In this document: in pieces, positions 27,142 through 30,967 of the stretch
Layout: every line of letters begins with the position of its first letter
Position numbering within the stretch: the stretch's first letter is position 1
DNA from: an uncultured Pseudomonadota bacterium
GTDB taxonomy: Bacteria > Myxococcota_A > UBA796 > SXON01
Reading direction: 5' to 3'
Assembly (NCBI GenBank): GCA_903921785.1
Contig: CAIXRH010000122.1
Location: forward strand, 1 to 42,391
Length of the DNA stretch: 42,391 nt
Position numbers and translations under genes: made by a program
The notes under the pieces: generated by a model
Seen by the model: the letters and a program-made list of their open reading frames with translations, nothing else
Databases searched by the model: none
What the model was told of the DNA's origin: nothing

Positions 27142-28515
27142 TCACTCCCCCTCGGCCTCCGCCGCGGGAGCCGCGGCCCCCGCCGCCGGCGCCCCGTCCA
27201 CCGTTCCCTCCGCCCCCAGCTCGCCACCCGCCCCCTCCACCGCCGCCCCCTCGCCCCCCACCGGCCCCGGCCGCGGCGCCGGCGGCTCCTCCGGCCCGAA
27301 CTGAACGTCGCGACGCACGGCGTAGTGCAGCGCCGCCATCTCGGGCTCGATCCAGCCCATGAGCGCCGCGCTGTGGTAGCCCACGCGCACCTCCGAGAGC
27401 GAGCGGACTTCCACCTCCGTGGTGGGGCTCAGCGGCCGATCTCCGGCCATGACCTCGGCATACCGTTGCGGGTACCGCGGCTGGCGGTTCGGCTCGGCGA
27501 GGCCCAGGGGGGCGGCGAGGAAGGTGTGGGGATCGTAGAGGTCCTCCGCGCCGAAGACGTGGCCGATCTCGTGGGCCACCGTGAGCTGGGCATAGGCAGG
27601 GTTCGTCTCATCGAGCGACACGAACGGGACGGCGATGCGCCCCGTCTGGGAACCCCGACTGTCGGCCGCGAGGTCGGAGCCGGCATGGCCATAGACGAGG
27701 TAGACCCTAACGTCCCAGAGATCGGGCTCGGCGCCGAAACGCTCGGCGAGCTGCGGCCAGTAGCGGGTGTATTGCCAGCTTGCCCAGGCGAGCTTCGGCC
27801 ACGACGCGGTGGGATCGTCCACGCGGGGCCGCGCCACCTCCGCCTCCCATGGCCCGAAGATGCGCATGTGCACCAGCGGCGTGGACGAGCCGGTGTAGCG
27901 GCGGTACTCGGCGTCGTACCACTCTTGTACGCGAAGGAGCCCGTACGGCCCATCCGCGGCGTTGAGCGCCCGAACCAGCGGATCGTCGAGCTGACCGGGG
28001 GGCACGAACTGGTACACGGCGACCGTGATCCCGTGCACCGGATCGACGTGCGCCTCCTCTGCGCGGGTGAACCGCACCACCTCGAAGAGGAAGACCACAA
28101 AGAGGAAGATGGAGAACAACTGCCGGGTGCGCCACCGGCGGCGGTTCGCGGCGTGGCGGCGCGCACACACCACGCAGAGGCGCCCACCGCCGGACTCCAG
28201 GCGACAGAGCGCGCAGATCCCCTGACCGCAATCCGTGCAGGTCCGCCCAAGGAGCTGCGGCGGGTGCTCGGGGCAGATCGTAGGGGAGAGGCGATCTTCC
28301 TGGATCACCGCCACCGTGGCGCCTTCCCCCCGGAGCTTCGCCGCGAGCGCCGCCGCGGGCGCCTCGCTGTCGAAGGACTCCAGGAGGATCGGGAACATCT
28401 GCGCCCCGGAGGCGGGGATCGACGGATGCGGCCCCACGTCGCTCGGCGGGCGCACCATCACCACCAGCCAGCGGGGCCCCGAATGCGGGGGCTCGGGCAG
28501 CGGCGTCGGCGTCAT
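27142..28515 (-). CDS. Membrane protein: DUF2007-like domain, zinc finger, TM, HEIGH metallopeptidase
   Basis: A 457-aa protein with an unusual order of parts. Residues of about 40-75 (FPILLESFDSEAPAAALAAKL) resemble the small DUF2007-type signalling fold. Residues 81-121 hold a B-box/treble-clef-like zinc finger (Cys81, His84, Cys93, Cys96, Cys101, Cys104, Cys114, Cys117, His121). One transmembrane helix lies at about 132-148. The outside part has the zinc peptidase motif HEIGHVFGAEDLYD, with His315, Glu316, His319 and Asp325 as a possible third ligand. The C-terminus is Pro/Ala/Gly/Glu-rich. Orientation by the positive-inside rule (RRRWRTR before the helix) puts the finger in the cytoplasm and the peptidase outside. 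It follows the FG-GAP lipoprotein gene by 11 bp, so the two probably share a transcript. Confidence 0.75.
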   Translation of the reverse strand: MTPTPLPEPPHSGPRWLVVMVRPPSDVGPHPSIPASGAQMFPILLESFDSEAPAAALAAKLRGEGATVAVIQEDRLSPTICPEHPPQLLGRTCTDCGQGICALCRLESGGGRLCVVCARRHAANRRRWRTRQLFSIFLFVVFLFEVVRFTRAEEAHVDPVHGITVAVYQFVPPGQLDDPLVRALNAADGPYGLLRVQEWYDAEYRRYTGSSTPLVHMRIFGPWEAEVARPRVDDPTASWPKLAWASWQYTRYWPQLAERFGAEPDLWDVRVYLVYGHAGSDLAADSRGSQTGRIAVPFVSLDETNPAYAQLTVAHEIGHVFGAEDLYDPHTFLAAPLGLAEPNRQPRYPQRYAEVMAGDRPLSPTTEVEVRSLSEVRVGYHSAALMGWIEPEMAALHYAVRRDVQFGPEEPPAPRPGPVGGEGAAVEGAGGELGAEGTVDGAPAAGAAAPAAEAEGE

Positions 28516-28526
28516 GCCCGGTCCGG

Positions 28527-30845
28527 TCAGAGCCCCTGGCCGAGCACCAGGTAGGCGCTCCCGGCCTTGCTCCCCACGCCGTAGTCTTCGTAGGGCGCAC
28601 CCACGAGCACGTCGCCCTTTCCGTCGCCGTTGGTGTCGCCCACGGAGGCGAGGCTGTTGCCGGCGTAGTCGCTGTCGCGCTCACCGGTGAGCTTCGCGTC
28701 GGCGGCCGTGAGGCTGGTGAACGAGGCGAGCGGGCCGTACATCAGGTAGGCGGCGCCGGCGCTGGTGCCGCCGGTGTCTTCGAGCACGGCGCCGATGAGC
28801 ACGTCGTCGTCGCCGTCGCCGTCCATGTCGCCGGCGTTGGCGAGGGCCCAGCCGGCGCCGTCGTCGCCGCCTTCGCCGGCCACCTTGGCGTCGGCGGCGC
28901 TCAGGTCGAGCGTGCCGGCGGCATGGGTGCCCCCGCGCACCACGTAGGCCGCGCCGGCGTCGGCCGCGCCGTAGTCGTGGTAGGGCGCGCCCACCAGGAC
29001 GTCGGTGTAGCCGTCCCCGTTCTCGTCGCCGCCGCCGGCCACGGCGTAGCCGGCCTGGTCGCTGGCGTTCTCGCCGACGAGGGTGAGGTCGGCGGCGCCG
29101 AGGTCCACGTCGCCCGAGAAGGGGCCGTACAGCACATAGGCCGCGCCGGCGCCCGCGCCCCCGCCCGCGTCGCCGACGGCGCCGATGGCCACGTCGTCCC
29201 ACCCGTCGCCGTCCACGTCGCCGAGCATGGCCACGCTGGTGCCCGCCTGGTCGGACGCGGACTCGCCGATGAAGGTGGTGGTGGCGGCCGAGAGGTCCAC
29301 CGTGCCGCCGGCGCCGTGGCTGACGAGCCAGGCGACGCCCGAGAGGGAGCCGCCGTCGTCCGCCCAGGGGCCGCCGATCAGCAGGTCGTCCGCGCCATCT
29401 CCGGTCGCGTCGCCGCCGCCGGCCACGACCCAGCCGGCGTAGTCGCCCGCGTCTTCGCCGATGAGGGTGAGGAGCGCCGCGCTCGCGACGCCTGCGCTGC
29501 CGCGGGTGGCGCCGTCCACCACGTAAGCCGCGCCGGCATCGGTGCCGCCGCTGTCATTGCCCCAGGCGCCCACCGCGAGGTCGGGGACGCCGTCGCCGTT
29601 CCAGTCGCCCACCCCCGCGAGGCCGTAGCCGAACCCATCCCCCGCTGCGGCACCTTCCACCTCGAGGAGCGCCACCGCGCCGATGCCGGTGACGCCACTC
29701 GTGGGCCCGGGGACCGCGTAGACCGCGCCGGCGCCGCTGCCCGACGCGTCCGCCCCGAAGGCGCTCACCAGCAGGTCGGCGAGGCCGTCACCGTCGAGGT
29801 CGCCCACGCCGGAGACCGCGCCGCCGACGTAATCGCTGGAGTTGTCGCCGCGGAGCTGGGCGTTGGCGGTGGAGAGGTCGGAGGTGCCGCCGAGGCCGCA
29901 GCCGTTGCTGGTGCCGTCGCAGTCATTGTCGAGGCCGTCGTGGCAGACCTCGGTCTCGGCGGGGCTCACGGCCGGGTCGGTGTCCAGGCAGTCGTCGGCG
30001 TTGGGGACGTAGCCGGAGGGCGCGGCGCAGGCGGAGGTCTCCACCGCCTCGTCTCCGTACCCGTCCCCGTCGGCGTCGCCCCAGAAGGGCGATTGGACGC
30101 CTTCATCCACGACGAGGTTGCAGTCGTTGTCCAGGCCGTCGCAGACCTCGGGGTTGCCGGGCCAGCGGGCGGCAGTGGTGTCGTCGCAATCGTCGGTGTT
30201 CGCCACGTAGCCGGACGGCGCAGCGCACGCCTGGGTCTCCACGGCGGCGTCGCCGAAGCTGTCGCCGTCGGCGTCGGCCCAGAAGGGGGTGGTGACACCC
30301 TCGTCCACCACGCCGTCGCAGTCGTCGTCCACCGCGTTGCACGCTTCATCCATCGCGGGGTTCACGGCGGCGTTTCCGTCGTCACAGTCGGCGCCGCCGA
30401 GCCCGGCGTTCTCGTAACCGTCGCCGTCCGCGTCCCGCTCCACGACGGAGAAGTGGATCGTGGCGGTGGTGGTGAGCGCCTCGGGGTCCGTCGCGGTGAC
30501 CGACAGCGTATAATCCCCGAGGGGCAGCGGATCCAGCGTGAAGTCCGCCAGTCCGTCGAGCCCCGGGGCGGAAGGCAGGTCGGACGCACCGGAAACCGGC
30601 CCATCCCAGGCGAGGGCCACCAGCTCCAGGCTCGACCCGTCGTAGTCGCCCGCGAGAATCTCCACGCGAACCGGGTCGGTGGGATCGAAGAGGTCGCCCT
30701 CGGCGGGATCCAGGAACCCGATCTCGGGCGCCCGCGGCTCCGTGACGATGTCCGCCGGTTTTACCGGCGCGCCGCCGAGCCACACCCCGCCGTCGACGGA
30801 CTCGCCGAAGTTGTCGGAGCAGGCGACGAGCCAGAGGAGCAGCAC
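28527..30845 (-). CDS. Lipoprotein with MopE repeats and seven FG-GAP repeats
   Basis: A 772-aa surface lipoprotein. GTG 30845 gives VLLLWLVAC with Cys9; in-frame ATGs further upstream lie in the intergenic repeat and add an Arg/Pro-rich sequence with no signal. After an Ig-like region (about 40-160) there are three MopE-type units (for example DADGDGYGDEAVET, CNAVDDDCDGVVDEG), then seven FG-GAP repeats. Each repeat has the form GxxxxDxAGxxxAxxGDxDGDGxxDxLxGA ending in AGAAYxxxG. Seven repeats is the number that closes an integrin-alpha-type propeller. Calcium binding is expected from the DxDGDG loops. Biological role unknown. It shares its layout with the 579-aa protein at 2687-4426. Confidence 0.85.
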   Translation of the reverse strand: MLLLWLVACSDNFGESVDGGVWLGGAPVKPADIVTEPRAPEIGFLDPAEGDLFDPTDPVRVEILAGDYDGSSLELVALAWDGPVSGASDLPSAPGLDGLADFTLDPLPLGDYTLSVTATDPEALTTTATIHFSVVERDADGDGYENAGLGGADCDDGNAAVNPAMDEACNAVDDDCDGVVDEGVTTPFWADADGDSFGDAAVETQACAAPSGYVANTDDCDDTTAARWPGNPEVCDGLDNDCNLVVDEGVQSPFWGDADGDGYGDEAVETSACAAPSGYVPNADDCLDTDPAVSPAETEVCHDGLDNDCDGTSNGCGLGGTSDLSTANAQLRGDNSSDYVGGAVSGVGDLDGDGLADLLVSAFGADASGSGAGAVYAVPGPTSGVTGIGAVALLEVEGAAAGDGFGYGLAGVGDWNGDGVPDLAVGAWGNDSGGTDAGAAYVVDGATRGSAGVASAALLTLIGEDAGDYAGWVVAGGGDATGDGADDLLIGGPWADDGGSLSGVAWLVSHGAGGTVDLSAATTTFIGESASDQAGTSVAMLGDVDGDGWDDVAIGAVGDAGGGAGAGAAYVLYGPFSGDVDLGAADLTLVGENASDQAGYAVAGGGDENGDGYTDVLVGAPYHDYGAADAGAAYVVRGGTHAAGTLDLSAADAKVAGEGGDDGAGWALANAGDMDGDGDDDVLIGAVLEDTGGTSAGAAYLMYGPLASFTSLTAADAKLTGERDSDYAGNSLASVGDTNGDGKGDVLVGAPYEDYGVGSKAGSAYLVLGQGL

Positions 30846-30886
30846 GGGGCGAGTGTAGCGCGGATCAGGCGAAGGCGCCGATCGGC

Positions 30887-30967
30887 GGGGGGGTTGGTTG
30901 TCCCCCCTCCCAGCCCTCCTCCAGCCTCGCGAGCCCAAAGTGGGCCAGCCAGGACAAACGTCGGCGC
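30887..30967 (+). repeat. Dispersed intergenic repeat, copy D (core inverted)
   Basis: G-tract, CCCCCCTCCCAGCCCTCC, core, then GCCAGGACA and GTCGGCGC. The outer blocks match copy B in order and direction. The core at 30927-30946 (TCGCGAGCCCAAAGTGGGCC), however, is the reverse complement of the core form seen in copies B and C. It lies between two minus-strand genes. Confidence 0.7.

Follow-up and report, generated by a model that had tools for sequence, protein, structure and literature searches.

Prokaryotic B-box domains have reportedly been described together with membrane-associated peptidases by Burroughs, Iyer, and Aravind in 2011, who are said to have suggested a role in protein processing. 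Among peptidases, the snapalysins (family M7) carry the motif HExxHxxGxxD, and ADAMDEC1 is a mammalian enzyme that is not known to carry a bacterial-type anchor or finger. ADAMDEC1 has been described as an ADAM protease with HEXXHXXGXXD that is active in vitro and is the known mammalian exception to the His ligand (PMC5174729), and in snapalysin a Met located beyond the third ligand is conserved (PMC3890501). In Listeria, the metzincin Mtz cleaves its paired lipoprotein Tim (PMC8235301).

The gene analyzed here lies in a window (the whole stretch of DNA that was analyzed) of 42,391 nucleotides, and its features are listed in Table 1. Matches to the window protein at E ≤ 1e-3 were found in 28 of 93 related genomes, its own included, and therefore we consider the gene to be real. 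Across alignment A1 (24 rows), homologs share 36–58% identity with the window protein and keep the finger and active-site residues, a conservation that, judged by sequence, is far beyond chance. A W16-x-V-V block is retained in nearly all rows of A1, suggesting that the protein starts before this block. Alignment A1 leaves out L001 (the window protein), L020 (start unresolved, finger present), L026 and L028 (both fingerless), L027 and L029 (two pieces of G035), and L030 (a different B-box protein), while alignment A2 (77 rows) leaves out L079, L080, L090 (cut), and L101 (X). An earlier note on this DNA had proposed that an N-terminal domain, a zinc finger, a transmembrane (TM) helix, and a metallopeptidase follow one another on a single chain, and this order is borne out by the ORF, by A1, and by the structural model.

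Table 1. Features of the peptidase gene and its upstream neighbor (positions in the window)
Feature	Position	Strand	Basis or remark
Whole gene, B-box finger / TM / ADAM-fold metzincin (likely), 457 aa	27142..28515	-	ATG at 28515
N-terminal beta/alpha domain, residues 14-75, reduced ClpS / L7-L12-CTD-like fold (predicted)	28291..28476	-	separate model, fold search
B-box-type binuclear zinc finger, residues 79-119, eight ligand positions	28159..28281	-	conserved ligands, Pfam scores
Single TM helix, residues 132-150, N-in by charge (predicted)	28066..28122	-	charge rule, model helix
Metallopeptidase domain, residues 158-391, adamalysin/TACE fold, predicted periplasmic	27343..28044	-	model, fold matches
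Active-site motif HEIGHVFGAEDLY, putative zinc ligands H315, H319, D325, catalytic E316	27535..27573	-	conservation
EVMAGD, residues 354-359, invariant M356, Met-turn candidate	27439..27456	-	A2 conservation
C-terminal tail, Pro/Ala/Gly-rich	27145..27303	-	low model confidence, unconserved
FG-GAP/MopE lipoprotein gene, upstream partner	28527..30938	-	11 bp gap to peptidase gene

The HExxH peptidase core named in the earlier note is well founded: the full motif HExxHxxGxxD, with Asp at the third-ligand position, is present in 80 of 80 wider relatives, though one of the two patterns used to search for them demanded HExxH and the Gly (the Asp was not required by it). H315, E316, H319, G322, and D325 are invariant in A1, and A2 adds Y327, P336, G338, P349, Q350, and M356 to this invariant set. 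As the motif suggests, H315, H319, and D325 probably bind zinc, with E316 as the general base, and the predicted catalytic activity rests on these residues being intact. In the AF2 model (mean pLDDT 86.7), the top Foldseek match was TACE (E 1.6e-5), and a VIA search over residues 158–391 recovered BaP1 (2w12; Z 11.3, rmsd 4.1, 177 aligned), TACE (3ewj; Z 11.2, rmsd 4.4, 190 aligned), and adamalysin (2aig; Z 11.1, rmsd 4.0, 175 aligned).

The predicted model thus has the adamalysin fold of the ADAM/reprolysin family M12B (Z 11.0–11.3), and its HExxHxxG helix, with the third ligand three residues after the Gly (80/80), is that of the metzincins, MA(M). The third-ligand His of M12B is an Asp in all 80 relatives, and no M12B profile scored above its cut-off (Reprolysin_2/3/4/5, 14.0–15.0 bits vs. 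Pfam cut-offs of 22–27). No M7 match was found for the window protein in Pfam, and PF02031 appeared in two of the 24 A1 rows at E ≤ 0.1 (best E 0.011). The Asp at the ligand position is also that of the Asp-zincins, MA(D), a group defined by having no Met-turn; the invariant M356 (77 rows), a Met-turn candidate, argues against this assignment. By sequence, no curated peptidase family was reached, with only weak Pfam and NCBIfam matches in the 24 rows scanned. We conclude that the domain is likely an ADAM-fold metzincin, as modeled, with Asp, as in ADAMDEC1 and snapalysin, as its third zinc ligand; ADAMDEC1 shows that an ADAM-type protease with such a ligand can be active (PMC5174729).

Upstream of the finger, a separate model of residues 1–122 (pLDDT 85.4) predicts a strand, loop, strand, helix, strand arrangement (strands 15–22, 43–48, and 67–73; helix 51–63). 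This N-terminus had been described as DUF2007-like, a label that we replace: Pfam gave no DUF2007 match at E ≤ 10 under HMMER filters that may drop very weak matches, and ClpS and L7/L12 lead by fold. In the VIA fold search, the ClpS entry 9ayn reached Z 6.2 (rmsd 3.5, 63 aligned) and the L7/L12 entry 8yeq Z 5.8 (rmsd 3.0, 60 aligned), values in a range (Z under 8) that by itself can reflect a common arrangement. The top four rows and seven of the top 12 were ClpS, four of the remaining top 12 were L7/L12, and all of the top 13 carried one of these titles except for chain BL of 6gb2, which belongs to a 39S mitoribosome, and the malarial protein 4o2x. The ClpS/L12 link is helped by the N-terminus of homolog L050, which scored 25.4 bits against Ribosomal_L12 (cut-off 25.9, E 1.8e-5), and by profile comparisons: hhalign gave the window N-domain family a probability of 26 against L12, and the N-domain comparisons, at 26, 46, and 68, are suggestive only. 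A SPOR identity was rejected, as it was represented by a single weak match (E 0.094, Pfam scan).

The ClpS/L7-L12 fold has two helices between strands 1 and 2, and the window model has a loop and one 4-residue helix in place of this pair. Our reading is that the N-domain is a reduced ClpS/L12-like fold that, according to the model, would have lost most of the helical pair in the window's branch. It is conceivable that a ClpS-like adaptor head hands membrane or cytosolic substrates to Clp, linking cleavage outside with degradation inside; however, while ClpS heads the fold rows and L7/L12 follows, a Z of only about 6 and the reduction of the helical pair make this very unlikely.

The B-box-like finger of the earlier note is present and conserved, but the nine ligands that the note had counted are eight, since the ninth candidate (H121) is not conserved in A1. 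Its spacing is C81-x2-H84, C93-x2-C96, C101-x2-C104, C114-x2-C117; the first seven of these positions are invariant in A1, and the eighth, C117, is His in two rows (L019 and L025). Going by the residues, eight ligand positions in cross-brace order suffice for two zinc ions. The Pfam family zf-B_box (PF00643) scored 20.5 bits on the window protein in one scan and 25.4 in another (cut-off 24.1), and was matched at E ≤ 0.1 in 21 of the 24 A1 rows. Among solved chains, the finger weakly recovers B-box and RING-like treble clefs, with the B-box chains at only Z 2.9–3.0.

The full-length model contains a continuous helix at residues 115–156, and in 24 of 24 A1 rows the flank of the TM segment that bears the finger has the more positive net charge; both back a single TM helix, at about 132–150, as the earlier note had proposed one. 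An earlier K/R count over 77 rows, in which the TM segment was misplaced in some rows and N-termini were clipped (N-side richer in 19, ties in 15), is superseded. The charge bias, together with the fact that a Cys-rich finger suits the cytoplasm, argues for an N-in orientation and supports, as a prediction, the earlier placement of the finger inside and the peptidase outside on one chain. A cytosolic head, one helix, and a periplasmic enzyme is the simplest predicted topology.

The finger is present in 26 of the 28 matching close-relative genomes (absent in G019 and G065). In a sample of 377 Myxococcota genomes, 43 have the peptidase; of these, 28 match the profile as far as the finger, 14 lack the finger (all 14 were read), and one has a fragment. 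Among 80 wider relatives, seven of which (L031–L037) are apparently on the same contigs as close-relative loci, nine have the finger, two a zinc ribbon, and 69 neither by pattern. The fusion of finger and peptidase put forward in the earlier note is thus not general in the family, as 14 of 43 Myxococcota genomes and 69 of 80 wider relatives (three of the 69 cut at the front) show no B-box; fingerless homologs, which the note had named as grounds for refutation, therefore exist. It follows that the enzyme can do without the finger, and that catalysis does not call for a sensing role. What this unnamed family has in common is the TM helix and the peptidase; most members have only a short inside stretch.

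A tree was built on the TM helix and peptidase alone, with finger columns excluded, from 69 rows (33 of the 80 wider loci, spread by hand, 24 A1 rows, and 12 extra genomes). The B-box label changes six times on this tree, at least five of the changes being forced by well-supported branches (six and four in a quick tree), and gain and loss are indistinguishable. The cytosolic head looks like a labile accessory. The B-box-plus-N-domain head occurs in two Myxococcota clades, that of the window and a second one, and two desulfobacterial-type records bear a zinc ribbon instead of the B-box. In a search of 140 Myxococcota genomes with a profile of both parts, no full-length second user of the ClpS/L12-plus-finger head was found; weaker matches extended over the finger and, at best, a portion of the N-domain.

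Several individual records illustrate this variety. In L102 (4007-5206) and L046 (1709-2644), the same peptidase has, ahead of its TM helix, a zinc ribbon of the form CxxC...CxxC in place of the B-box, and L102 has an additional domain ahead of the ribbon that is L12-like by eye. In L193 (G100) and L189 (G124), the peptidase frame continues upstream through a segment that looks secreted and holds a further hydrophobic stretch, which makes a different fusion partner. B-box-type fingers also open other Myxococcota membrane proteins, polytopic or with a single TM helix and a small outer domain (L205–L220; by eye). Headless relatives are found in Zoogloea, Dechloromonas, Methylovorus, and many uncultured proteobacteria, and in four Acinetobacter baumannii records (about 38% identity), one of which (L221, 3941-4699) is annotated as "hypothetical protein" and lies downstream of topA. 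Among the neighbor ORFs of headless relatives, named by eye, no common operon partner was seen.

With most of the wider relatives lacking both B-box and zinc ribbon, short forms lying next to unrelated genes (ORFs that by eye resemble CysQ, Btu, fumarase, and Dus, or, in Acinetobacter, topA), and B-box heads sitting on unrelated membrane proteins in the phylum, the protein could be a housekeeping periplasmic protease whose head is a generic anchor without signaling and whose lipoprotein neighbor is incidental. However, within the window clade the finger holds on to all eight of its ligand positions although neighboring residues drift, and the head recurs in the second clade; we regard this as a possible explanation, but not a probable one.

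Immediately upstream, the lipoprotein ORF ends at 28527 and the peptidase ATG is at 28515, so that the 11 bp gap given in the earlier note is correct. This lipoprotein contains seven FG-GAP and three MopE stretches (Pfam) and an LVA-C lipobox; its start is uncertain, being either TTG 30938 or GTG 30845, the latter being followed directly by a very short hydrophobic segment and then the lipobox Cys. It lies immediately upstream of the peptidase gene in 10 of 10 other same-genus (g1) loci (62–74% identity) and in the sister genus (g3) genome G012 (53% identity), so that, counting the window's own genome, the two genes form a tight same-strand pair in 12 of 12 genomes of g1 and g3. The remaining nine of the 20 loci fetched all lie outside g1 and g3, and in them the lipoprotein gene does not adjoin the peptidase gene. 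Within the family (22 genomes of completeness 76–96, where incompleteness may hide some genes), 14 have both genes (12 adjacent), four the peptidase only, two the lipoprotein only, and two neither. The co-occurrence expected in the earlier note therefore holds within the genus and in one sister genus but not elsewhere, where each gene occurs alone, and the linkage is lineage-specific. One record titled Klebsiella pneumoniae (L035, CAMAWH010000005.1) carries the myxobacterial gene pair, and its title is probably wrong.

The distance from the lipoprotein stop to the conserved Trp is 8–56 nt in 11 g1 loci, own included. In five of the 10 same-genus loci (L113, L115, L116, L117, and L118), no ATG, GTG, or TTG lies in frame between this stop and the Trp codon, and a CTG overlapping the lipoprotein TGA is the only candidate start seen, suggesting translational coupling. 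The window's flanking genes RtcA, orf108, and NtrC were not recovered beside the pair in 11 loci (seven with >3 kb upstream); L113 has a single 33% partial NtrC match more than 10 kb off. Several same-genus loci do have flanking genes in common, so the linkage there is partly general synteny. Outside the genus, the only conserved neighbors seen by eye were DUF547-like, short, and glycosyltransferase-like ORFs in three to five distant Myxococcota loci, and the neighbors in beta- and gammaproteobacterial loci were, also by eye, unrelated housekeeping ORFs. An anti-phage role was considered and rejected, as neither the peptidase nor the lipoprotein had a PADLOC match at E ≤ 0.01.

That the pair holds together despite differing flanks speaks against an incidental neighbor of a housekeeping protease, while the parting of the two genes outside g1/g3 speaks for it. 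The tight linkage, the overlapping CTG starts, and the Listeria precedent (PMC8235301) would also fit a dedicated maturation enzyme that clips the lipoprotein near the membrane and releases it, as Mtz does with Tim. Against this, G013 and G017 keep a lipoprotein ortholog but lack the peptidase, and four genomes have the peptidase alone; we hold this alternative only tentatively. The lipoprotein has a Ser after its lipid Cys, and by the E. coli rule such a protein is sorted to the outer membrane, where an enzyme of the inner membrane would not be close by; this, like the large number of FG-GAP/MopE proteins in these genomes, counts against the lipoprotein as the substrate. Overall, the evidence that the two form a functional pair in g1/g3 is fair, but it does not extend to an obligate substrate.

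Taken together, we consider it rather probable that the protein is a membrane-tethered periplasmic metzincin with a docking or regulatory cytosolic head and with the lipoprotein as the likeliest substrate in the genus. It would sit in the inner membrane through a single TM helix, its N-terminus in the cytoplasm and its metzincin, with an intact catalytic site, on the periplasmic side. In Myxococcota, its head would comprise the ClpS/L7-L12-like domain and the B-box; exchangeable between lineages, this head most likely lets a cytosolic partner dock or regulate the protein. The enzyme may cut an extracytoplasmic protein near the membrane in a sheddase-like manner. Within the genus, the likeliest single candidate substrate would be the FG-GAP/MopE lipoprotein, since the two genes lie 11 bp apart and remain together where flanks differ, and in view of the Mtz/Tim precedent. 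A bolder scheme, in which the head binds a partner or signal and switches the metzincin from inside to free the co-encoded lipoprotein, with headless and zinc-ribbon forms answering other inputs elsewhere, seems to us unlikely.

In a search limited mostly to the open literature, we found no B-box/metzincin fusion, no bacterial membrane-anchored HEXXHXXGXXD family, nothing on MopE/FG-GAP proteins in Myxococcota, and nothing on the headless metzincin form. Our analysis points to an unnamed membrane metzincin family of Myxococcota, beta- and gammaproteobacteria, and a few other groups, which, if active, would be a tethered bacterial ADAM-fold protease with a cytosolic part swapped between lineages. 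The family, its predicted Asp ligand in an ADAM-like fold, and its exchangeable heads are worth follow-up, and, if the enzyme is active, they offer a direct way to ask if a B-box head on the inside governs proteolysis on the other side of a bacterial membrane.

The proteins of Burroughs et al. reportedly also join a B-box finger with a membrane peptidase, and the window protein, with finger, TM helix, and peptidase on one chain, would fall within that class; the concept of such a chimera is therefore not new. In Listeria, a metzincin gene is likewise paired with a lipoprotein gene, but Mtz is secreted and Tim is TIMP-like (PMC8235301). ADAMDEC1 shares HEXXHXXGXXD in an ADAM-type domain (PMC5174729). 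In snapalysin, the Met follows about ten residues after the Asp (PMC3890501), vs. 31 residues in the window protein. Finally, ADAM17/TACE and the adamalysins (M12B) share the predicted peptidase fold (Z about 11) and a membrane tether; unlike ADAM17/TACE, the window protein has no disintegrin domain among its Pfam rows, its predicted third ligand is Asp and not His, its anchor is N-in/C-out, and its sequence falls below the Pfam cut-offs.
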